Part shown: positions 9,639 to 43,767 of the stretch, one piece after another
How positions within the stretch are numbered: position 1 is the first letter of the stretch
Layout of the letters: each line of letters starts with the position of its first letter
Source of the DNA: Marinobacter gelidimuriae
GTDB lineage: Bacteria; Pseudomonadota; Gammaproteobacteria; Pseudomonadales; Oleiphilaceae
Assembly (NCBI RefSeq): GCF_000372805.1
Contig: NZ_KB889919.1
Coordinates: 1-64,000, forward strand
Reading direction: 5' to 3'
Length of the DNA stretch: 64,000 bases
Translations under genes and position numbers: made by a program
Notes under the pieces: generated by a model
The model's database searches: none
The model's input: the letters and a program-made list of their open reading frames with translations, nothing else
Told to the model about the DNA's origin: nothing

Positions 9639-9657
9639 CCGGTTCTAGCAGGTGTTT

Positions 9658-10758
9658 ATGAAAGTTGTTCAGGTATTGCCCACTTTAAATGGTGGTGGTG
9701 TGGAGAAAGGCACCCTGGAAATTGCTAAGGGTCTGGTCGGTAGCGGTCATGAATCGATAGTGATCTCGGCCGGCGGCGGGATGACCGCGCAGCTGGAAGC
9801 GGAAGGCAGTCGTCATGCCACCTGGGACCTGGGTAAAAAATCACCGTTAACCTTTCGCCATGTGCGGGCGTTGCGGCGCTGGCTGCTACAGGAAAAACCG
9901 GACATTCTGCATCTGCGTTCCCGCATGCCGGCGTGGGTCTGCTGGCTTGCATGGAAGGGCCTGCACGAGAGCCAGCGCCCGCGTTTGGTGACGACAGTTC
10001 ACGGGCTTTATTCTGTCAGCCGTTACAGCGCCATTATGTGTCGTGGCGAGCGCGTTATCGCGGTATCCAATACCGTCTGCGATTACATTCGTGAAAGCTA
10101 TCCACACACCGATATGGATAAAGTCCGGATTGTTTACCGTGGTATCGACCCGGGTGAGTTTTCGCAAGGTTATCATCCCTCTGACGAGTGGCTGGGCCAA
10201 TGGTATCTGCAGTATCCCCAACTAAAAGGGAAAAAAGTGCTAACCCTGCCCGGACGCCTGACCCGGTTGAAAGGCCATCACGATTTTATTGGTCTGATCA
10301 AGCAATTGCGGGATTCGGGCCAGCCGGTGCATGGACTGATCGTGGGCGGTGAGGATCCGAAGCGAAAGGCTTATGCCCAGGAGATCCGGAAGCGGATTGC
10401 CAAAGAAGGGCTTGGGGACAGCATATTGCTGACCGGCGCAAGACGTGATATTCGAGAGGTGTTCGCCGTTTCCGATCTGGTGCTTTCTTTGTCAACCAAG
10501 CCCGAGTCTTTCGGTCGGACTGTAGTGGAAGCCTTGAGCATGGGCGTGCCGGTCATTGGCTATGACCATGGCGGTGTAGGGGAAGTCCTCGGCCAGTTGT
10601 ATCCGCAGGGCCGCGTGCCTTTGGCGAATTCTGATGCTCTTTACGGGGCGGTAATCAAGAACTTAAACACAGTACAGTCACAACCACGAAATGATCGTTT
10701 CTTGCTGAGTGAGATGGTCCGGCAGACTCTGGACTGTTACCTGGAGCTGGCGCAATGA
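9658..10758 (+). CDS. Glycosyltransferase family 4 protein
   Basis: A retaining GT-B glycosyltransferase of about 366 residues. The N-terminal acceptor domain begins KVVQVLPTLNGGGVEKG. The C-terminal domain has the PGRLTRLKGHHDF motif and the EXFGRTVVEALSMGVPVIGYDHGG nucleotide-sugar-binding stretch, with the EX7E glutamates (sequence here read in two overlapping parts). The ATG at 9658 is preferred over GTG at 9652 because an AGCAGGT site lies upstream. It ends in an ATGA overlap with the deacetylase. A 5' stub of a closely similar gene lies at 20.7-20.8 kb. The sugar it transfers is unknown. Confidence 0.88.
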   Translation: MKVVQVLPTLNGGGVEKGTLEIAKGLVGSGHESIVISAGGGMTAQLEAEGSRHATWDLGKKSPLTFRHVRALRRWLLQEKPDILHLRSRMPAWVCWLAWKGLHESQRPRLVTTVHGLYSVSRYSAIMCRGERVIAVSNTVCDYIRESYPHTDMDKVRIVYRGIDPGEFSQGYHPSDEWLGQWYLQYPQLKGKKVLTLPGRLTRLKGHHDFIGLIKQLRDSGQPVHGLIVGGEDPKRKAYAQEIRKRIAKEGLGDSILLTGARRDIREVFAVSDLVLSLSTKPESFGRTVVEALSMGVPVIGYDHGGVGEVLGQLYPQGRVPLANSDALYGAVIKNLNTVQSQPRNDRFLLSEMVRQTLDCYLELAQ

Positions 10759-11567
10759 TTTGGGGCGCGATTCTTCTGCTGGCTTTGCTGGGGCTGCTGG
10801 TATTAAGCAAGCGGTACGCTTGGTGGCGCCCCGCTGTCGGGCAAGAGCATCCGCGTATCCTGATGTTCCACATGGTCAGTGAGCATCAACCGGGGGCGAA
10901 GTTCAACAAACTGCGGGTGAAGCCAGAGGCCTTTGACTGGCAGATGCGCTGGCTCAAGGAAAATGGTTGGTACTTTGCGTTGATGTCAGAGTTGGCGGAG
11001 CCGGAAAAGCTGCCGCAAAAAACGGTATTTTTGACTTTTGATGATGGCTTCGCCGACAACTACCATCAGGCTCATCAGGTATTGCAAAAGGTGGGCGCCA
11101 GAGCAACGCTTTATTTGGTAGTGGACCGTTTCGATCGTGACTGGTCCACAGCCAAGAAAGCACACCATAACAGTGGCGAATTGATGCGCGAGCCCAAACT
11201 GAGCGATGAACAGGTCACCGAGATGTTGGCCAGTGGCTGTTGGGAACTGGGTGGCCACACACTGACTCATGCCAATCTGGCGCGCCTGGATGAGGCGCAA
11301 AAGCTGACTGAGATCAAAGGCTGCCGAGAACAGCTCGCAGCCCGGTTTGGTGTTTTCGTGTCCAGCTTTGCCTATCCATTCGGCATCTATGACAGGGCCG
11401 ATGTCGCGTTAGCCGAAGAGGTCGGATTTGTGAGCGCAGTAACAACGGTTGAAGGCATAGAAATTGATTGTCCCTCGAACCGTTTTCAGCTTCGCCGTAT
11501 CAAAATTTCAGGTAAGGACAACCGGCTGGCATTCCGTCTGCGAATGCGCACCGGCAGAAGAGGTTAA
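10755..11567 (+). CDS. Membrane-anchored polysaccharide deacetylase (NodB fold)
   Basis: A 270-residue carbohydrate esterase family 4 protein. One N-terminal membrane helix (about residues 2-18) is followed by the NodB domain with metal-binding motif TFDDG at 94-98 and HTLTH at 168-172, plus a FAYPFG motif. It probably removes N-acetyl groups from a sugar in the LPS core or its precursor at the membrane. In Pseudomonas a de-N-acetylase gene (dnpA) also sits in the core LPS locus, but I cannot say this is its orthologue. It lies between two glycosyltransferases, overlapping the first and four bases before the second. Confidence 0.88.
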   Translation: MIWGAILLLALLGLLVLSKRYAWWRPAVGQEHPRILMFHMVSEHQPGAKFNKLRVKPEAFDWQMRWLKENGWYFALMSELAEPEKLPQKTVFLTFDDGFADNYHQAHQVLQKVGARATLYLVVDRFDRDWSTAKKAHHNSGELMREPKLSDEQVTEMLASGCWELGGHTLTHANLARLDEAQKLTEIKGCREQLAARFGVFVSSFAYPFGIYDRADVALAEEVGFVSAVTTVEGIEIDCPSNRFQLRRIKISGKDNRLAFRLRMRTGRRG

Positions 11568-11570
11568 GGC

Positions 11571-12599
11571 ATGAAGGTATGTCAGATAATGGCCGGAAAT
11601 GAAGAGGGCGGCTTGGAAAATCATTTTGTTGAATTGTGCAATGGCCTGGCTGGCAAAGTTGACAAAGTGGTGGTGATCGCCCATGAGAAGTACCGTGAAC
11701 GCTTTTGCCCTGAGGTGCGGTTTTTACCCTTGGACTTGAGCGGAGGGCGCCGCAATCCCTGGTTGTTGTTTCGCCTGGCATTACTCATCCGTCAGGAAGC
11801 ACCGGATATCGTCCATGCACAAGCCAGTAAGGCGGTCGACATGCTGGCTCGTATCCGCGCATTCGTTCCCGGTTACCGGATAGGAACCCTGCATAATCGT
11901 AAAAAGAAATTGGGGATGTATGCCGGGATGCAAACGGTGATTGGAGTTAGTCAAGGTGTGGTCGATGGGCTTGAACACCCTGATATTCGGGTGGTTTATA
12001 ATGGCATCCAGCCCTATACCGATGTGCAGTACGATAAAAGTCGTTTGGCCGCTGAATATCAGTTCGATCCGACGTTACCGATTGCAATAGCGGTGGGGCG
12101 TTTAGTTTTTGCCAAAGGCTTCCGGGAGCTGATTCGTGCCTGGCCGGCAGGTAAAGGGCAGTTGCTGATCGTTGGAGATGGCCCGGAGCGTGAGCCGTTG
12201 GCTTCGCTGATAGCCAACCTGAATCTGGAGCAGCAGGTGATTCTTGCAGGCTATCGTTCCGATGCCAGGGGGTTGATGACCGGTGCAGATCTCCTGCTGG
12301 TATCCTCAAATCGCGAAGGCTTCAACTATACCGTGGCCGAAGCGTTGGCTTGTGGTTTGCCGGTGTTATCAACTCAAGTGCCAGTGGCGCAGGAAATTCT
12401 TCCCGAATCTTACTTGGTGCCGGTCAATGACCTGCAAGCACTCAATGCGGCCTTGTGTCGGGTTTTAAGCAACCTGGACGTGGCTCGAACTGAACAGCAG
12501 TCGGTGTTTTCCTGGGCGCGCAAGACTTTTTCCATCGACCACATGATCCTGCAGACCATAGCGCTGTACCGGGAGAAGTTGCAGCAGGTGGCGCAATGA
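11571..12599 (+). CDS. Glycosyltransferase family 4 protein
   Basis: A 342-residue GT-B glycosyltransferase. It begins MKVCQIMAGNEEGGLENHF, an acceptor-side glycine-rich loop, and carries AVGRLVFAKGF, IVGDGPER and the SNREGFNYTVAEALACGLPVL donor-binding block (EX7E with E in NREGF and AEALA). It is translated three bases after the deacetylase stop and overlaps the next ELM1-family gene by four bases, so the genes are translationally coupled. It differs from the glycosyltransferase at 9.7 kb and probably makes a different linkage. Substrate unknown. Confidence 0.87.
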   Translation: MKVCQIMAGNEEGGLENHFVELCNGLAGKVDKVVVIAHEKYRERFCPEVRFLPLDLSGGRRNPWLLFRLALLIRQEAPDIVHAQASKAVDMLARIRAFVPGYRIGTLHNRKKKLGMYAGMQTVIGVSQGVVDGLEHPDIRVVYNGIQPYTDVQYDKSRLAAEYQFDPTLPIAIAVGRLVFAKGFRELIRAWPAGKGQLLIVGDGPEREPLASLIANLNLEQQVILAGYRSDARGLMTGADLLLVSSNREGFNYTVAEALACGLPVLSTQVPVAQEILPESYLVPVNDLQALNAALCRVLSNLDVARTEQQSVFSWARKTFSIDHMILQTIALYREKLQQVAQ

Positions 12600-13636
12600 A
12601 CAACCCATCCGGCAAACTGCGAATTTTATTGCTGAGTGATGGCTTGCCTGGGCATCTCAGCCAGTCCCAGGGGCTTGCAAGGTGGTTAGGCGATCGTTAT
12701 TTAACGGAGTCTGATGAAATGACCGTTGGCTTGAAGGTTAAGCCGCTTGCAAGGCTTATCCTGCCTTACATGACGCGATTCCGCTGTTTAGCGCCGCTGG
12801 TGTTGAGGTTTTATAGTGGTGTCCCGGATGATATTCAGGGTGTTGATCTAATCCTGTCTGCAGGTGGCACTACCTCCTTTTTGAATGTGGCCCTGGCGCA
12901 ACACGGGCAAATTCCGAATGTGTTTCTGGGGTCCAAGCGCCGTCTGCGATCAGACGATTTTTCAGCCCACCTGACCCTGGAGCCGACTGGCGAGCCGCAC
13001 AATATTGTTATGATCCTGCCGCCAACGCTCACGGATCCGGAACAGTTGCAGGAAAAAGGCCGTGAACTGCGATTATCTCTTGGGCTTTCGGATAACGAAA
13101 TGCTGAACCTGATGGCGATAGGCGGTGACGGCGCGGGGTACCAGTATGACAGCCAGGCGGTACAGCAGTTGGTCCAGCTAATGATAGAAGAGTACCAGCG
13201 CACCGGCCGGCGCTGGCTTTTGACGACTTCGAGGCGGACGGGAGCGAGACTTGAACAGGAGCTTAAGCAAGCCATGCCGGCGGAATTGTTAGCAGATAGT
13301 GTATGGTGGTCGGAGAATCCGCGTAAGGTGATGGCGGCCTATATGGGGGCTGCTGACCAGATCTTCATTACTGCAGACAGCATGTCGATGATTGCCGAAG
13401 CAATTTCCAGTGGCAAGCCAACAACCGTGCTGTGGCCTGAAAAGAGTAGGCCGGACTCGCGCTATAAGGCCGCTCTGGAGCGCTACGAAAAACACGGTCT
13501 GTGTCAGCTCGCCAGACTTGATGAACCGGTCACGTGCACGCTCGATGGCTCGGCAGCGGTTTCCCGGGCGCGTGAGGCTTTATTGGACCAGTTGGAGCAA
13601 TATCATGACCTGTCAGCTTTTCAGCGTTTGAGCTGA
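12596..13636 (+). CDS. ELM1-family protein (Mito_fiss_Elm1), copy 2
   Basis: A 346-residue member of the ELM1-like family, only distantly similar to the copy at 7.5 kb. It shares the SDGLPGHLSQSQGL start block, the LSAGGTTSF motif, GSKRRLR, AIGGDGAG, TTSRRTG and TADSMSMIAEAISSGKPTTV. The last block looks like a GT-B donor site, but the activity is unproven. It is the last gene of the 7.5-13.6 kb operon, starting with an ATGA overlap. Its 3' end overlaps the convergent ligase-glycosyltransferase gene by 16 bases, so no space for a terminator exists between them. Confidence 0.84.
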   Translation: MNNPSGKLRILLLSDGLPGHLSQSQGLARWLGDRYLTESDEMTVGLKVKPLARLILPYMTRFRCLAPLVLRFYSGVPDDIQGVDLILSAGGTTSFLNVALAQHGQIPNVFLGSKRRLRSDDFSAHLTLEPTGEPHNIVMILPPTLTDPEQLQEKGRELRLSLGLSDNEMLNLMAIGGDGAGYQYDSQAVQQLVQLMIEEYQRTGRRWLLTTSRRTGARLEQELKQAMPAELLADSVWWSENPRKVMAAYMGAADQIFITADSMSMIAEAISSGKPTTVLWPEKSRPDSRYKAALERYEKHGLCQLARLDEPVTCTLDGSAAVSRAREALLDQLEQYHDLSAFQRLS

Positions 13637-15876
13637 TGAATTCCCTCTTCGAGAGCCTGTAAAAAGCACGCTTTTGCCTGGGCAGGAGTGTAACGCTCGC
13701 GATATCGCTGCTGCGCCCTATATGCCATGGCAAGTCGCTGCTCCGGATTTTTAATCAACACAGTCAGCGCATCAGCAAATGCCCGGGCATCGCGCCTGGG
13801 TACTATCATTCCAAGCTCACCGTGCTCCAGCAGCTCGGCCGTTCCGGGGTCGTCAGTTCCTATCACCGCACAGCCTGCTGCAAAGGCTTCGATTGGGCTG
13901 ATCGGAAAGCCTTCTCCCAGGGTTGGAAAGCAGAAGATATGCGACTTGGCGAGAAATTCCACCGGATCCTGAACCTGACCGACAAATTCTACCTGCTTCG
14001 CAAGTCCGAGCCTGTCACGGAGTTTCTGGAATTCTTCCAGATCTCCGGACCCGGCAATGGAACAGGTGAAATCGATACCTTGTTGCTTCAGTTGAACCAA
14101 TGCGTTAAGCAATACATCAACGCCTTTGGTGGCCGTCAGGCGACCCATGAAACTGAGTTGCACAGGCATTTCCATGGCTTGGGGTGGGTGGATGCAATGC
14201 TTTCTTGGGCAATTGAACACCCGGAAGTGGCGCCCTTTGAGCGTCCGCTCTCGGATCAGTTTTTCAATATGGTTCGATATATTGAAAAAGATATCCGCAC
14301 CAATGGATCTTTTGACATTATTCGAGTGATTAACGGCGATCAGGGGAGTGTGGAGTGGCTTCGCACGCTTGAATAAACAGGTTGAGCGACCGCCATGACT
14401 GATAACGGCATCAGGCTTGATCTGTCGCAGAAGGTGCCAGAGCTTGACGGTGGCAACGGGGTCATAAAAGCCAAAGTTGCTCATGCGAATAACCTTGCAG
14501 CCAATTGCTTTCAGTTCGGTTGTGGGCTCATCTGTTTTTGTGCCAATAATAACGGTTACTTCATGGCCTGCCTCGCGCAGCCACCGGCTGTAATCAATCA
14601 GAACCTGCCAGCGGCCACCGCGCGCACTGCCGAATACTGTGTTGATAATATGCATTCTATTTCTGTTCTCTTTGTCTAATGGGAGTTTCACGCAGCTTCT
14701 TGACCCAAGCGACAATCCGAAACAAACAGAAAATAAGCCCACTGTATGGTACGACATCAGATTCATATCACTCATGCCCTTAATGCTGAGGTACGTCAGC
14801 GTTGCCAAGGCAAAAGCCGTTGCCGGGTTTTTGACAGCAGCACTGAAATTAATTTTCAGCAGTGCGTTAATTATCCAAGCTGTCAAAAGCACGCTCCCTA
14901 TGATCCCGAACGAAAATAGCGCCTCCAGGTATAGGTTGTGCGGATAAAGAAATTGGTAGCCATCAACGGCAGCCATTTCTACATATTTATACGTTGCAGC
15001 TCCCCAGCCGGTAAAAAGCTGTTGCTGGCAGGTTTCAAGCAATTGAGCGTAAATCTGCGAGCGTATTTGAAGCGTGCGCACTTGTAAGCCTGTGAGGCTG
15101 GAAAACTGTTCAGGAAACACATAGAAAACCTGGAGCAACAGTACCGGTAAGAGCGCGAGGGTCAACAAACCATAGCGTAGGGCTTTCTTCTGGCAGCTTA
15201 ACCCCGCCAAAAGCAGGCATGTGCATGCCAGCGCCAGTAGTGACCCTTCGGATTGTACGAGAACGCTTATAAGCAGGAGCGGTAGTAAGGAGCACAAGCC
15301 GGTAAGCCGGCTTGAAGTGCGGCGATGTTGCCATGTGACGATACCAGCCAGAAGCAGGCTGATAAAAAGAAAATTGTCGAGATTGTGAATGTTGCCAACA
15401 TGCGTTGACGACCATGCGTTGATGGACTGGTAGGGAGCCGACCAGTCAACAACCCAAACAAGAAGGCTCAATGCAACTACTGAGCTGATCATGCCGAAGA
15501 ACAGAGCCACCCGTTCAAATCGGTGGGGGGTGAAGGTGTCGGCCGCCAGTAACGCCACCGGTAGAATCCATAATCCTTTGAATACGTTGAAGGCCCCTGT
15601 CGATGCCTTGGCCGGTAACGGTGAAAACACAGCACTAGCAACGAGCAAGGCTATAATCGCTGCCAGAATTTTCAGATGAGAACGGACAAATGTGAAAAAC
15701 GAGTGGTGAGTTATAGACAGTAACAGCAATAATACGCTTATTGCTGTGGTGTGGCTGACCATGTTGACCGGTGTGGCGATCATGAGGTAAGTCAGCCCGG
15801 CAACAAATAGATAGTTGATCAGCTCCTGCCGGTTCCACAGGGTAAAACTCTCAGCCAGTAAACGTTTTACATGCAT
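13621..15876 (-). CDS. O-antigen ligase (WaaL-like) fused in frame to a GT4 glycosyltransferase
   Basis: One open frame of 751 codons. Residues 1-407 form a polytopic membrane protein with about ten hydrophobic segments and the PHNLYLEALFSFGIIG loop of the Wzy_C/WaaL O-antigen ligase family. Residues 408-751 form a complete GT4 glycosyltransferase with its own natural-looking beginning (MHIINTVFGSARGGRWQ), then SFMGRLTATKGVDVL and FPTLGEGFPISPIEAFAAG. The internal ATG (complement of 14653-14655) has an AAAGAGAAC stretch upstream. The two proteins may therefore be made as a fusion, as two proteins from one message, or both. The ligase would join a polymer to lipid A-core in the periplasm, while GT4 enzymes act in the cytosol. 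A fusion needs a membrane topology that puts the C-terminus inside. A sequencing error removing a stop is possible. Confidence 0.82.
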   Translation of the reverse strand: MHVKRLLAESFTLWNRQELINYLFVAGLTYLMIATPVNMVSHTTAISVLLLLLSITHHSFFTFVRSHLKILAAIIALLVASAVFSPLPAKASTGAFNVFKGLWILPVALLAADTFTPHRFERVALFFGMISSVVALSLLVWVVDWSAPYQSINAWSSTHVGNIHNLDNFLFISLLLAGIVTWQHRRTSSRLTGLCSLLPLLLISVLVQSEGSLLALACTCLLLAGLSCQKKALRYGLLTLALLPVLLLQVFYVFPEQFSSLTGLQVRTLQIRSQIYAQLLETCQQQLFTGWGAATYKYVEMAAVDGYQFLYPHNLYLEALFSFGIIGSVLLTAWIINALLKINFSAAVKNPATAFALATLTYLSIKGMSDMNLMSYHTVGLFSVCFGLSLGSRSCVKLPLDKENRNRMHIINTVFGSARGGRWQVLIDYSRWLREAGHEVTVIIGTKTDEPTTELKAIGCKVIRMSNFGFYDPVATVKLWHLLRQIKPDAVISHGGRSTCLFKRAKPLHTPLIAVNHSNNVKRSIGADIFFNISNHIEKLIRERTLKGRHFRVFNCPRKHCIHPPQAMEMPVQLSFMGRLTATKGVDVLLNALVQLKQQGIDFTCSIAGSGDLEEFQKLRDRLGLAKQVEFVGQVQDPVEFLAKSHIFCFPTLGEGFPISPIEAFAAGCAVIGTDDPGTAELLEHGELGMIVPRRDARAFADALTVLIKNPEQRLAMAYRAQQRYRERYTPAQAKACFLQALEEGIHQLKR

Positions 15877-15980: not shown

Positions 15981-16940
15981 TTAGTTTTTTTTACTTTTTT
16001 TTCTGTAAAACCCCGGGTCTTTCTCATCTGGCCGAGTCTTGAACCGCCGATGCATCCACAGATACTGGTCGGGCGCCTTGCGAATCTCCTGCTCTATAAA
16101 GGCGTTGATGCGGGTGGCATCCTCCAGGTCGTCGCCACCGGGGAAGTTTTCCAATGGAGCGTGGAAGTAGATGTCGTAGCCGGGTTTGTCTGCATGGCGG
16201 AAATGGCTGAAGGGCATGACCGTACAGCCGCTGCGCTCGGCGATTCGGGACGTTGCTGTTATGGTGCCTGCCGGAATCCCGAAAAAGGGTGCGAAGACGA
16301 TGTCCTTGCGGCCATAGTCCTGATCGGTGGCGTACCACACGGCCCGGTTCTGTTTCAGGCTGCGCAATAGTCCACGGAGATCTTTGGCACTCAAAACCTT
16401 GCCATACCGGCGCTCCCTGCAACGGGTCATGACGGCATTCATCAGCGGGTTGTTGTGGTCGCGCTGCATGACATTCGATTTGATATACTCTGTCGAGAGC
16501 GAACCGCCCATTTCCAGCGTGCTGAAATGCGCACCCACGAGCAGAATGCCGCGACCGGCTTCCAGTGCTTTTTCAAAATGCTCTTGGCCATGAATGCGCG
16601 TAATCTTTTTCAGTTTTGCGGTGTTCCGGAACCAGCCAATTCCGATTTCGATCAGGCCGATGCCATTGGCAATAAAGCTGTTGCGAACGAGTGCCCCCTG
16701 TTGTTGTTCGTTCAATTCGGGGAAGCACAGTTGAATGTTCGTCTCGGTAATGCGGCGCCTGGACTTGGCAAATGTCCATGCCAGCAGCCCCGCCATCCGG
16801 CCCAGCCACCATTGGCTGCGCAAGGGCAGCTGGGCGACCAGCCACATGGCAGCAATGCCCAGCCAGGTTGTCCACCACCTGGGGTGGATGTAGGCGGAAT
16901 AATTGGTATTTCTGGGAAGCTTGCGGTACTTATTGTTCAA
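15981..16940 (-). CDS. Lipid A biosynthesis acyltransferase, second type (LpxL/LpxM family)
   Basis: About 319 residues, with a membrane anchor near the N-terminus (WLGIAAMWLVAQLPL), the HX4E catalytic motif HFSTLE, the downstream TDQDYG and FFGIPAGT blocks, and the QYLWMHRRFKTRP ending of the family. The start is uncertain. A TTG at complement 16940 has AGGAT upstream and gives the N-terminus MNNKYRKLPRNTNYSAY, which aligns with MKKKYRKQPRNTDFSAY of the decayed paralogue at 22.2 kb. An ATG at complement 17021 would add 27 residues that overlap the promoter area of waaA. It is divergent from waaA. It should add a secondary acyl chain to Kdo2-lipid A. Confidence 0.9.
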   Translation of the reverse strand: MNNKYRKLPRNTNYSAYIHPRWWTTWLGIAAMWLVAQLPLRSQWWLGRMAGLLAWTFAKSRRRITETNIQLCFPELNEQQQGALVRNSFIANGIGLIEIGIGWFRNTAKLKKITRIHGQEHFEKALEAGRGILLVGAHFSTLEMGGSLSTEYIKSNVMQRDHNNPLMNAVMTRCRERRYGKVLSAKDLRGLLRSLKQNRAVWYATDQDYGRKDIVFAPFFGIPAGTITATSRIAERSGCTVMPFSHFRHADKPGYDIYFHAPLENFPGGDDLEDATRINAFIEQEIRKAPDQYLWMHRRFKTRPDEKDPGFYRKKSKKN

Positions 16941-17004
16941 AATCGCTGATCCTACATCGACAAACGGTCTGTTCGAGGGCAAGATGCCCGGCAAAAGAAT
17001 GACA

Positions 17005-17020
17005 TCACTATGATAACGCA
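17005..17020 (+). promoter_or_regulatory. Possible waaA -10 element shared with the decayed copy
   Basis: TATGAT at 17009-17014 lies 28 bases before the waaA start. The same CTATGATA string occurs at 22336-22343, 27 bases before the start of the decayed waaA copy. Conservation of the string and spacing between two otherwise diverged upstream regions suggests a -10 box. No good -35 hexamer is visible. Confidence 0.35.
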
Positions 17021-17041
17021 TCGTTTTGCCGGGAGTCCCGC

Positions 17042-18295
17042 GTGTTGCCGTTCATTTATTCCCAACTTATCAGAATCGCCCTGCCGTTTATCCTGATCCG
17101 GCTATGGTGGCGCGGCAGGAATGCCCCCGCCCGCCGCAAAAACTGGCTGCATCGTCTTGGTATTGTGCCGAAAATGTTCGGGCCCGTCATATGGGTGCAT
17201 TCAGTGTCTGTGGGTGAAACCATTGCTACTGCGCCCATGGTTAGACGGTTGCTGGCACAGAATCCTGATGTTGCCATTCTGATGACCGCGATGACCGACA
17301 CCGGTCTGGCCCAGGCCCGGAAGATGTTTGGTGACAGGGTAGCCTATGCTTACGCCCCATACGACACACCGGGCGCAATTCGCCGTTTTCTTGACCGTGT
17401 CAATCCTCGGATTCTGGTCATCCTCGAAACTGAAATCTGGCCCAATATGATTGGCTTGTGCCGCAAGCGCAATGTTCCGGTGTTTCTGATTAATGCCCGG
17501 TTGTCCGAGCGTTCCGCCCTTGGATACGAGCGGGTGAGAAATCTGGTGGCTCCGGTTATGCAGAGCATCACCTGGGTGGCGGCGCAAGCCGAGCCGGATG
17601 CTGAAAGGTTCCGGCGTATTGGTGTGGCGGCAGCGCACGTTGAGGTTACCGGGAGCGTGAAATTTGATGTCGATATTCCGGAGGGTGTTCGTGACGCCGC
17701 TACCCGCTTGCGAGAGCAGTTTGGGCACCGGCCGGTCTGGATTGCGGGCAGCACGCACGATGGTGAGGATGTGCAGCTTCTGGAAGCCCAGCGTGGCGTG
17801 CTGGCACGCCACCCGTCGGCGTTATTAATTCTTGTGCCCCGCCATCCGGAACGCTTCGATGCGGTCGCTGAAATGGCCGCGGGTAAGGGCTTTGCGGTGG
17901 TTCGCCGTTCATCTGGCCAGCCTTCGAAAACCGCCCAGGTTTATGTTGGCGACACCATGGGCGAGCTGATGATGCTCTACGGCGCCAGCGATATGGCTTT
18001 CGTGGGTGGTTCACTGACTGAGCATGGCGGGCACAATCCTCTGGAGCCGGCGGCGTGGGCCATTCCGGTGTTTTCAGGCTCCCACGTGTTTAATTTCGAG
18101 ACGATTTACGAGCGGCTGGAAAGTGATCGCGGCGCTCAGAGGGTGCAGGGCAGTCAGGAACTGGCGCAAGCGGTCAGCCACCTGATGTCGAATTCAACAG
18201 AGCGGCTGGCCTTTGGCCAGCGGGCGCTGGCAGTGGTCAACAAGAACCGTGGGGCGCTGGACAAGGTGGTGGAAGGGATTATCGAGAGGTTGTGA
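17042..18295 (+). CDS. waaA: 3-deoxy-D-manno-octulosonic acid (Kdo) transferase
   Basis: A 417-residue inner-membrane-associated GT30 enzyme that transfers Kdo from CMP-Kdo to the lipid A precursor. It has the N-terminal membrane helix, the IWVHSVSVGET motif with the proposed catalytic glutamate, the LVPRHPERF and GDTMGELMMLYGASD blocks, and GGSLTEHGGHNPLEPAAW. The start is GTG at 17042. It is divergent from the acyltransferase gene. A gutted paralogue in the same divergent arrangement is found at 22.4-22.9 kb, so this copy should supply the essential function. Confidence 0.95.
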   Translation: MLPFIYSQLIRIALPFILIRLWWRGRNAPARRKNWLHRLGIVPKMFGPVIWVHSVSVGETIATAPMVRRLLAQNPDVAILMTAMTDTGLAQARKMFGDRVAYAYAPYDTPGAIRRFLDRVNPRILVILETEIWPNMIGLCRKRNVPVFLINARLSERSALGYERVRNLVAPVMQSITWVAAQAEPDAERFRRIGVAAAHVEVTGSVKFDVDIPEGVRDAATRLREQFGHRPVWIAGSTHDGEDVQLLEAQRGVLARHPSALLILVPRHPERFDAVAEMAAGKGFAVVRRSSGQPSKTAQVYVGDTMGELMMLYGASDMAFVGGSLTEHGGHNPLEPAAWAIPVFSGSHVFNFETIYERLESDRGAQRVQGSQELAQAVSHLMSNSTERLAFGQRALAVVNKNRGALDKVVEGIIERL

Positions 18296-20817: not shown

Positions 20818-21762
20818 TTAAAGCCCAGTTGATAAGAAGTGTTTCATAACCCAGCGTGCCGCAGCGTCTGCTTGCCAGAATAGAATACGTGATCCTGGAC
20901 TAGCGGTCATAACCTTGTAGTGATCATCCCAGGTGGCCACCAAATGTTCATCTTGCATTGCGGCCAGGCCCAGCGCAACGCGGCTGCGGCGCTTGGCCGG
21001 CAATTGGAACACCCCGGTGGGTACGCCAGACGTTGCCGCTTCGCACACCATCGAATTGCTGTCTGGGGTTATCCAGGCGCAGCGGCTGTGTGCCAAGGCG
21101 GTGCTTAGCCAGTGTTCACCGGTATCCTGCGGTGTTAACACTTGAATCCGGTTGGTTTCCAGCGCAGCCAGCGCCTGCACGCAGCTAGCCGGAGTGCGCC
21201 GGGAGCTGCTGATAACCCAGCTCCATTGCCGGTAGCTGTGCAACAATTCCTCGATCTGCGCCATGACAGCCTCGTCGCTCCACTGAAAATGCGCCGACGG
21301 ACCACCTACCAGTATCAGTCCGCGGGGCTGCGTGCCCAGTTCTTTAATGGGGGTTACGGCGTTGATTACGCCCTGGCTCAGAAACAGGTTCGGGCCCGGT
21401 TTCACCCGGTCGTGTTGGGGAATAATGGCGCCATCTACCCAGCGCAGTGGAAAGCCCGGTTTCATCAGCACCAGTGTGCGCGCACCTTTAAGCTTGCGCA
21501 GGGCCAACAGTAAACGATGGGTTCCGGAGCCGGCGGCGATGATCAGGTCTGGCTGCGGCGGAGCAGGGTCGAGCGCGGGTGGCCGCCCCAGAAGCACTCG
21601 CCATAGGGGCGTTTTGACGCTGTTTACGTCTATCCAGTGCAGTGACGCACCGGCCAGCACCCGCAGTCGGTTGCCCAGGCCTTTGAGTTGGTTGCGGTGG
21701 CCCGGTTTGTTGTCGGTTAGCAACCAGATAACCGGGAAGGACGTGTTAGCGTTTGCGGCCAT
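20818..21762 (-). CDS. ELM1-family protein (Mito_fiss_Elm1), copy 3
   Basis: A 314-residue, apparently complete ELM1-like protein starting MAANANTSFPVIWLL. It has TDNKPGHRNQLKGL, IIAAGSGTHRLLL, LMKPGFPLRWVDGAIIPQHD, VGGPSAHFQW, SSSRRTP and TPDSNSMVCEAATSGVPTGVF. The start at complement 21762 is chosen because the longer frame upstream is the shifted reading of the damaged acyltransferase gene. It overlaps that gene's end by 17 bases. It sits inside a group of decayed LPS genes yet shows no lesion, so it may still be functional. Its reaction is unknown; a glycosyltransferase-like role is inferred from context. Confidence 0.82.
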   Translation of the reverse strand: MAANANTSFPVIWLLTDNKPGHRNQLKGLGNRLRVLAGASLHWIDVNSVKTPLWRVLLGRPPALDPAPPQPDLIIAAGSGTHRLLLALRKLKGARTLVLMKPGFPLRWVDGAIIPQHDRVKPGPNLFLSQGVINAVTPIKELGTQPRGLILVGGPSAHFQWSDEAVMAQIEELLHSYRQWSWVISSSRRTPASCVQALAALETNRIQVLTPQDTGEHWLSTALAHSRCAWITPDSNSMVCEAATSGVPTGVFQLPAKRRSRVALGLAAMQDEHLVATWDDHYKVMTASPGSRILFWQADAAARWVMKHFLSTGL

Positions 21763-22228
21763 AGAAGCCTGGGTCATCTGGATCGGGTCGGGTTTTGAAG
21801 CGACGGGGCCTCCATAGGTACTGGTCCGCAACAGCACGCCTTTTCCGCCCTCTAGCGCGCTCGAAGTTCTCCAGCCCATGTAGGGTGGTAATGGCTTTGA
21901 GTTTGGCGGTATCGCAAAACCAACACACGCCAATTTCCAGTAAGCCAATGCCATTGGCGATAAAAGATTTTTTGACCAACTCGCGTTGCTGCTGCTCAGT
22001 GAGCTGCGGAAAACACAGGCGAATGTTGGTCTCTGTAATGCGCCGCCGGCTGTTACCCAGGCGCCAAACCAGGCGGCCCACGCCGGAGCCGAGCCACCAC
22101 TGCACGCGAAGGGGCAGCTGCGCTACCAGCCACATAAAAAACATGGCCGCCCAGGTAGGCCACCAGCGTGGGTGACGATAGGCGCTAAAGTCAGTGTTTC
22201 GCGGTTGTTTACGGTATTTCTTCTTCAC
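21746..22228 (-). pseudogene. Lipid A acyltransferase paralogue, internally deleted
   Basis: The N-terminal ~125 residues (MKKKYRKQPRNTDFSAY to TLHGLENFERA) and the last ~30 (DQYLWRPRRFKTRP to GFYGRKR) match the intact acyltransferase at 16 kb. The ~160 residues between them, including the HX4E active site, are missing. A two-base loss in a GC repeat shifts the frame after FERA, since the alternative frame still reads ALEGGKGVLL. The large deletion then restores the frame. The result is a misleading open frame of 160 codons without catalytic residues. It was divergent from the decayed waaA copy, as in the intact pair. Confidence 0.88.
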
Positions 22229-22369
22229 TAGAGTTGAACTCGCAAGTCTGTGGAATTTTGGTAAACCAGGGCGTCAGCTGACGTACACAAGCAATAGCGG
22301 GAACCGCCGCAAAAGGCAAACTGCTGATGTTTAGTCTATGATACCCCACTGCCTTATTCGGAGCCCGCT

Positions 22370-22887
22370 GTGCTGTAATTTATCCATTCCCAACTGATCC
22401 GCCTGATGCTGCCTTGATGATTATTGTGCCGCGCCACCCCGAACGTTTCGAGCTGGTCGCCAGCGCTGTTACAAAGGCAGGTTTCAGCCTGGCCCGCCGA
22501 TCGTTGAGCGAGAGCCCCGCTGCTGCTCAGGTGTATTTAGGCGACACCATGGGCGAACTGATGATGCTTTATGGCGCCAGTGATCTTGCTTTTATTGGCG
22601 GCTCGTTGATTGAGCGCGGCGGCCACAACCCTTTGGAGCCGGCGGCCTGGGGGATAGCGGTAATCTCTGGCCCCCACGTATTCAACTTCGAGTCGATTTA
22701 TCAGTGCCTGCAGGAGCACGACGGAGTAACCATCGTAGAGTCTGCTGGGGCGTTGTTAGTGTGTCTGACTCGGCTATTAAATAATCAACAGGCGTTGCAC
22801 GAAAGCGGTCAGCGCGCTTTGGCGGTAGTGGAAAGTAACCGAGGCGCGTTAGGCCGTGTGGTGGCCGGCATCAGCCAGCGGGTTTAG
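22370..22887 (+). pseudogene. Kdo transferase (waaA) paralogue, internally deleted
   Basis: GTG at 22370 begins a frame that matches the start of waaA (FIHSQLIRLMLP against FIYSQLIRIALP) but has TAA as its third codon. After ~16 codons about 250 codons are missing. The sequence resumes at the AALMIIVPRHPERF position and runs to the natural C-terminus, including GDTMGELMMLYGASD and GGHNPLEPAAW. An open frame of 157 codons from 22414 would be called a short protein by gene finders. It lacks the N-terminal acceptor domain and catalytic glutamate, so it cannot act as a Kdo transferase. Confidence 0.9.
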
Positions 22888-31679: not shown

Positions 31680-32162
31680 GTGATTGACTCAGACGGTTTC
31701 AGACCCAACGTCGGAATCATTCTGGCCAACCACAAAGGGCAAGTGTTGTGGGCGAGGCGCATAGGCCAAAACTCCTGGCAGTTCCCGCAAGGCGGAATTC
31801 ATCAGGATGAAACACCGGAACAGGCATTGTACCGGGAGCTTGGGGAGGAAGTTGGGCTGTGCGCCCGCGATGTGGAAATTATCAGTTGTACGCGGGGCTG
31901 GTTGCGATACCGCTTGCCGCGGCGGATGGTTCGCCACAATTCGCACCCGTTGTGTGTAGGGCAAAAACAGAAATGGTTCCTGCTGGGGATGCTTTCGCCA
32001 GACGCGCAGGTATGCGTAGATGGTACCGATTCACCGGAATTCGACGGCTGGCAGTGGGTAAGCTACTGGTACCCGTTGGGGCAGGTGATCTCATTCAAAA
32101 AAGAAGTCTACCGACGTGCGCTGCGCGAGCTGGCGCCGCGGCTGTTCCATAACATGGAGTAG
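31680..32162 (+). CDS. rppH: RNA pyrophosphohydrolase
   Basis: A 160-residue Nudix enzyme that removes pyrophosphate from the 5' end of mRNAs and so starts their decay. It begins [15 protein letters not shown] with GTG at 31680. The Nudix box [22 protein letters not shown] is complete (read in two parts). Position before ptsP matches Pseudomonas PA0336-PA0337 and other gammaproteobacteria. Confidence 0.95.
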
Positions 32163-32225
32163 GCGCGGCGTGCCGAGCACAACCGGCGCTTGAAGGAATA
32201 ATCATGACGACGGGCTAATCCCAAC

Positions 32226-43572: not shown

Positions 43573-43767
43573 GTGTCAGGTCAAAAGTGGTCGTTTAGTA
43601 ATTGGTTGTACGCAATTAGCCGTATTGACTGGTCAGGCTTTGCTCGGCTTTCCCAGTATTTTCCCTTGTCGTTTTGGGGCAGGCGAGCCATAATGTCGAG
43701 CTCCCTCAGGCAGGCTCTTGCCGTCTGGAGGTCTATTACCTTTTAACGTGACAAACGGACAGTGTCA

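Follow-up and report, generated by a model that had tools for sequence, protein, structure and literature searches.

The minus strand of the DNA stretch analysed here (64,000 nucleotides of the Marinobacter gelidimuriae contig NZ_KB889919.1, referred to below as the window) carries at positions 13621–15876 a single uninterrupted open reading frame (ORF) of 751 codons plus stop, in which a Wzy_C-type membrane protein of 407 residues is followed by a complete GT4 glycosyltransferase. The fused ORF is a genuine open frame in the assembly: it matches the contig of its own genome with 100% identity over aa 1–751, and both the continuity of the frame and its two-part composition, as given in the preliminary description, are borne out by the ORF listing and Pfam. 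As to its origin, we consider the chances about even that two abutting genes of lipopolysaccharide (LPS) assembly have recently been made one ORF by a genuine frame-changing mutation.

The ligase half, aa 1–407 (14656–15876, minus strand), is a predicted integral membrane protein of the Wzy_C superfamily, as judged by Pfam, the structure model and the listing of helices and charges. Its Wzy_C domain covers aa 197–331 (14884–15288, minus strand; E 2.9e-16, 60.0 bits against the cut-off of 31.7). The GT4 half, aa 408–751 (13624–14655, minus strand), is delimited by Pfam, fold matches and a free homologue; the GT4 domains lie between aa 420 and 734 and all score above the cut-offs (Glycos_transf_1, E 3.4e-36). 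The start-like methionine that had been assigned to the glycosyltransferase is indeed aa 408, with the ATG at 14655–14653. When run separately, the two halves yield Pfam scores as good as those within the fused ORF.

The model of the GT half has a confident GT-B fold and matches many solved enzymes over approximately aa 404–751 (Z 28–36, rmsd 2.4–4.1 among the 50 matches listed). In the sequence comparison with PimA the E-value is 2e-17, and a scan of genome contigs yields one distant glycosyltransferase match besides. The residues at aa 655–663 (13888–13914, minus strand) form what we take to be the E-x7-E motif of retaining GT4 enzymes. The half has the marks of a GT4 enzyme: Glycos_transf_1 and N-terminal GT4 domains, the GT-B fold and this motif.

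The ligase half is predicted to have about 12 helices, with a loop at aa 254–314 before the last three of them. Wzy proteins have approximately 10–14 transmembrane helices, according to a published description (PMC12004945), and the predicted helix number, together with the large loop before the last three helices, agrees with the architecture of the superfamily comprising WaaL, Wzy and PglL. Three residues of E. coli WaaL, Arg215, Arg288 and His338, are functionally important, as stated in PMC3643930. In the alignment and in hhalign, Arg288 corresponds to Arg272 (15061–15063, minus strand) and His338 to His313 (14938–14940, minus strand), while the position of Arg215 is occupied by Glu210 (15247–15249, minus strand); seven of eight aligned relatives have here the arginine of an SRG motif. 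Hence two of the three residues are retained. The relatives vary at the same sites, one (L045) having Lys for Arg and two (L034, L035) Asn for His. hhalign matches the ligase half to E. coli WaaL weakly (E 0.003, probability 10); nonetheless, the three motifs are in register. No solved structure was matched by the sequence search with the ligase half, and the matches that filled the two structure searches are to the GT half.

The label "WaaL/Wzy_C-type" given initially thus holds for the Wzy_C superfamily, whereas "WaaL" is too specific, since the half belongs to a superfamily of WaaL, Wzy and PglL and lacks one of the important E. coli WaaL residues. WaaL serves here as a superfamily label, and judging by sequence the half could possibly be a Wzy polymerase. 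Its activity is uncertain because Glu replaces the first important Arg. The sole other Wzy_C match in the genome (G000:C82:1253-1678; L121:815-2383) is a 522-aa protein with hardly any similarity to the ligase half (25% identity over 131 residues), which by eye has a PglL-type look.

By prediction, the ligase half ends in the cytosol, as three helices follow the loop bearing Arg272 and His313 and five Lys/Arg residues are present in the joint. The GT4 enzyme is thereby predicted to sit, on the C-terminal tail of the ligase, on its proper, cytosolic side. The earlier claim of a periplasmic ligase and a GT4 enzyme working on the cytosolic face thus agrees with the predicted topology. We also considered whether the opposite faces make a fusion implausible, and rejected this: the predicted C-terminus is cytosolic, and both WadA of Brucella and a Wzy_C-GT2 fusion common in the genus, considered below, do likewise.

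The joint, aa 391–407 (14656–14706, minus strand), is the tail past the last predicted helix, as delimited by the model and examined by codon scores; the model confidence is below 50 at aa 394–404. The tails of the relatives past the last conserved helix have approximately the same length as the tail of the fused ORF up to Met408. Reading the neighbouring (+2) frame reveals a TAG at 14657–14659 (minus strand), one base ahead of the ATG of the glycosyltransferase. The training set for the codon scores consisted of 26 long window ORFs. In a test spanning just 15–17 codons of an atypical gene, the tail scores −4.4 in the fused frame, the 5th percentile of in-frame ligase windows, and the 15-codon tail in the +2 frame scores +2.1, the 50th percentile, a value reached by 2.6% of off-frame windows. 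With the codon usage of the ligase itself, the preference is small (−8.0 for the +2 frame, −10.3 for the third frame, −11.4 for the fused frame). These scores hint weakly that the tail evolved in the +2 frame, so that the joining would be young. Programmed frameshifting was considered as well; inspection of the joint by eye showed no slippery heptamer.

A possible ribosome site had been noted before Met408. The best Shine–Dalgarno-like word within 20 bases 5' of the ATG has three letters at a spacing of 14. However, 14 of the 26 other ORFs of the window score no better, and hence the ribosome-site score says little either way. Internal initiation at Met408, and hence two forms of the product, is a reasonable possibility if the frame is genuine.

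The fused ORF is preceded by a gene of a lipid A acyltransferase-like protein (15981–17021, minus strand) and, beyond it, by waaA, encoding Kdo transferase (17042–18295, plus strand), both assigned by Pfam. On the other side, the ELM1-like gene (12596–13636, plus strand; ORF listing and Pfam) is convergent with the fused ORF, the two overlapping tail-to-tail by 16 bases (13621–13636). Besides the ELM1-like gene, Pfam identifies a polysaccharide deacetylase and two GT4 genes downstream of the fused ORF. The GT4–deacetylase–GT4–ELM1-like cassette (9652–13636) retains its order in G045, G027 and G116, with identities of 56–83%. Based on the gene families present, we infer that the locus is one of LPS assembly.

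Some genes further along the window are incomplete. A second acyltransferase gene is represented by a remnant at 21749–22234 (minus strand), without approximately residues 158–313 of the protein of a relative, and a second waaA by its last 160 codons at 22402–22884 (plus strand). Beside the intact copies at 15981–18295, these remnants point, as far as sequence can tell, to an LPS locus that was replaced or merged. At 31680–32198, a conserved gene, presumably of the Nudix type by its motif, stops about 16 codons short of its counterparts in three relatives, due to an in-frame stop near the C-terminus.

The search with the ligase half covered samples from the family (163 genomes, of which 124 belong to the genus), the order (390 genomes) and the class (369 genomes); the own genome is part of each sample, and some genomes recur between samples. 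Beyond the own genome, the matches at E≤1e-3 numbered seven in the family, ten in the order and five in the class, representing 21 different genomes. In none of the 20 loci opened among these 21 genomes (L044 was left out) does a single ORF match both halves; this absence of the joined form relies on ligase-half searches that are complete at E≤1e-3 and miss more divergent ligases, rather than on the searches with the fused protein, in which at most 8 and 6 candidates per genome are scored and the best rows listed. All ten ligase relatives at E≤1e-6 are in open frames of 398–447 codons. The long frames at the weak ligase hits in G528, G603, G732 and G597 were considered as candidate fusions and found unsupported: in L056 and L057, BLASTP gave no ORF match to the ligase half, and a glycosyltransferase match was absent from all four loci.

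Free genes for both parts are found among the relatives. The closest relative of the GT half, in G045 (L103), has 35% identity and is a free gene of 352 aa, whose residue 1 aligns with Met408. Just before it stands the same acyltransferase gene (85% identical), and farther along, on the other strand, there is a Wzy_C gene. In G027, a free ligase gene directly follows the acyltransferase gene, and in G116 a free ligase gene adjoins the ELM1-like gene. In G240 (L050), from another family, separate Wzy_C and GT4 genes stand in tandem with 14 bases between them. Comparison with relatives had been suggested as a check for separate genes; the two parts are separate in the opened loci, and this argues against a long-standing fusion. 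Given the separate genes of the relatives, a tandem pair of genes is the most likely ancestral arrangement.

The GT half also aligns, in BLAST, to the C-terminal end of ORFs of 671–686 codons in the eight loci examined. Long frames of approximately 790–820 codons from the list of glycosyltransferase matches in the genus were considered as candidates for the same fusion and rejected: all three that were tested with Pfam show GT2 followed by GT4, with no Wzy_C. The GT2–GT4 fusion proteins of the genus include L008:28-2067, L020:52-2067 and L033:16-2067, with frames up to about 820 codons, and thus joined glycosyltransferases are not rare there.

The separate genes in relatives and the joint codons favouring the other frame imply either a recent joining or an error. 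Accordingly, of the in-frame fusion described initially, the open frame stands, whereas a functional fusion is less certain. In the reading that we prefer, a Wzy_C-type gene, for a ligase (or polymerase), would have stood in tandem with a GT4 gene, one base apart, and a frame change within the final codons of the ligase gene would have produced a single ORF, recently and in this genome. If translated as read, the product would be a membrane ligase with a GT4 enzyme on its cytosolic C-terminal tail. The GT4 part would add a sugar to a lipid-linked acceptor at the cytosolic face, and after flipping the ligase half would join glycans at the periplasmic face, as in Brucella WadA; some free GT4 might still start at Met408. 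From sequence, the frame change is inferred to be genuine, recent and tolerated, with both activities present. An alternative origin of the single ORF is the loss of a stop codon by one substitution in the fused frame, with no frame change.

The strongest competitor, which we find rather unlikely while taking it seriously, is an assembly or base-calling error. In that case there would be two translationally coupled genes, the ligase gene truly ending one base ahead of the ATG from which the separate GT4 gene starts. The stop of the neighbouring frame one base before the ATG, the better codon score in that frame and the separate genes in the opened relatives all agree with an error, and the assembly is a draft; however, a chance stop one base before the ATG in either of the other frames is, by estimate rather than by computation, not very unlikely. 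In a frameshift control, 199 ORFs from three relatives were compared with the window. At E≤1e-20 and identity above 45%, 99 ORFs were matched, covering 52,306 of the 64,000 bases; the fused ORF lies outside this part. Among the 99 matched ORFs, we saw no intact gene with a clear internal frameshift; two places, at 315–573 and upstream of 43762, are doubtful.

A stop lies within 12 of the 99 best matches, and coverage is below 85% in 6 of the 99. In addition, five neighbouring matches lie in a different frame. One is against an ORF whose match has three stops and looks antisense, another falls in an extension on the upstream side that overlaps the gene before it, the third is a scrap at 315–573 from a partial gene, and the remaining two are upstream of the ORF at 43762. 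Since the control shows no clear frameshift, the sequence looks sound at the level of single bases; this speaks for a genuine change, and an error is not the default explanation. Its share of the probability reflects the draft state of the assembly, with 136 contigs, and the fact that one genome of the species is at hand.

An established, selected fusion, that is, a bifunctional membrane enzyme with a GT4 part, analogous to the Wzy_C-GT2 protein of the genus, is improbable. The joined form is seen in one genome and in none of the opened loci of relatives, the joint codons look off-frame, and a glutamate stands for a functionally important arginine. On the other side, the position of the joint and the predicted topology resemble those of Wzy_C-GT2, WadA demonstrates that the design works, and Wzy_C-GT2, present in 53 of the 124 genomes of the genus, is missing from the genome of M. 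gelidimuriae, as found by a genome search.

The Wzy_C-GT2 protein was reached via a survey of PF04932. It has about 670 aa, with Wzy_C at aa 193–336 and GT2 at aa 419–539, as assigned by Pfam in one protein (L089:1254-3272, minus strand, 672 aa). The near full-length matches in the 53 genomes comprise 50 in a single piece, including that of the query itself, and three in two pieces in one frame (G006, G072, G058); four of the 50 single-piece matches (G047, G054, G077, G031) have one in-frame stop within the matched span. Elsewhere in the family, 6 of the 39 genomes from other genera have it. The fetched stretch also contains waaA and an acyltransferase gene in 10 of 12 Wzy_C-GT2 loci, the remaining two stretches being short. 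Arg205, Arg268 and His318 are invariant in all 17 aligned proteins. In the model, three helices follow the loop and precede the glycosyltransferase; the mean pLDDT is 68.5, and the second half of the glycosyltransferase is poorly modelled. We found no description of this protein in the literature on ligase–glycosyltransferase fusions.

Among known systems, the solved GT4 structures PimA, PglA, BshA and WaaG share the GT-B fold with the GT half; the descriptions of the matches listed mention no fusion to a ligase. E. coli K-12 WaaL (L122) likewise has a Wzy_C region, in which Arg288 and His338 align with Arg272 and His313; it differs in having no glycosyltransferase domain and in having Arg215 at the position of Glu210.

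The Wzy_C-GT2 fusion (L089) is closer in plan: a ligase-like half comes first and a predicted cytosolic glycosyltransferase second, the joint is short and the predicted topology is similar. It differs in that the glycosyltransferase is GT2 rather than GT4, it occurs in many species, and its ligase half is outside the relatives of the fused ORF, the ligase-half search detecting no relation between the two. As this fusion is widespread in the genus, the plan of a ligase followed by a glycosyltransferase is viable there. The Wzy_C-GT2 proteins are tractable material for asking why cytosolic sugar transfer and periplasmic ligation are tied together.

WadA of Brucella is the only relevant protein that we found in the literature on ligase–glycosyltransferase fusions. 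It is a bifunctional glycosyltransferase/O-antigen ligase and, in the words of its authors, the first such ligase identified (PMC9938171). According to the same paper, one chain of the LPS pathway combines a cytosolic glycosyltransferase domain with a 12-helix ligase domain that has a conserved His in a periplasmic loop. For the fused ORF, if it is made as one chain, the model predicts a cytosolic glycosyltransferase and a periplasmic ligase loop. The order of the domains is reversed: in WadA, as described in that paper, the glycosyltransferase is N-terminal (aa 1–266) and the ligase C-terminal (aa 267–703), while the fused ORF has the ligase first and GT4 last. WadA has been tested genetically (PMC9938171), and the fused ORF is known from sequence.

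If the frame change is an error, the case advises caution about annotated fusions whose joint, read in another frame, ends one base ahead of a former start codon. If the fused ORF is genuine, it adds to LPS assembly a further, differently built protein that is active on either side of the inner membrane. Should it be a selected ligase-first enzyme with a C-terminal GT4, which we regard as quite doubtful, it would be an independent parallel to Wzy_C-GT2, and the joining of the last cytosolic sugar transfer with periplasmic ligation would have evolved at least three times, in WadA, in Wzy_C-GT2 and in the fused ORF, with two orders of the domains.
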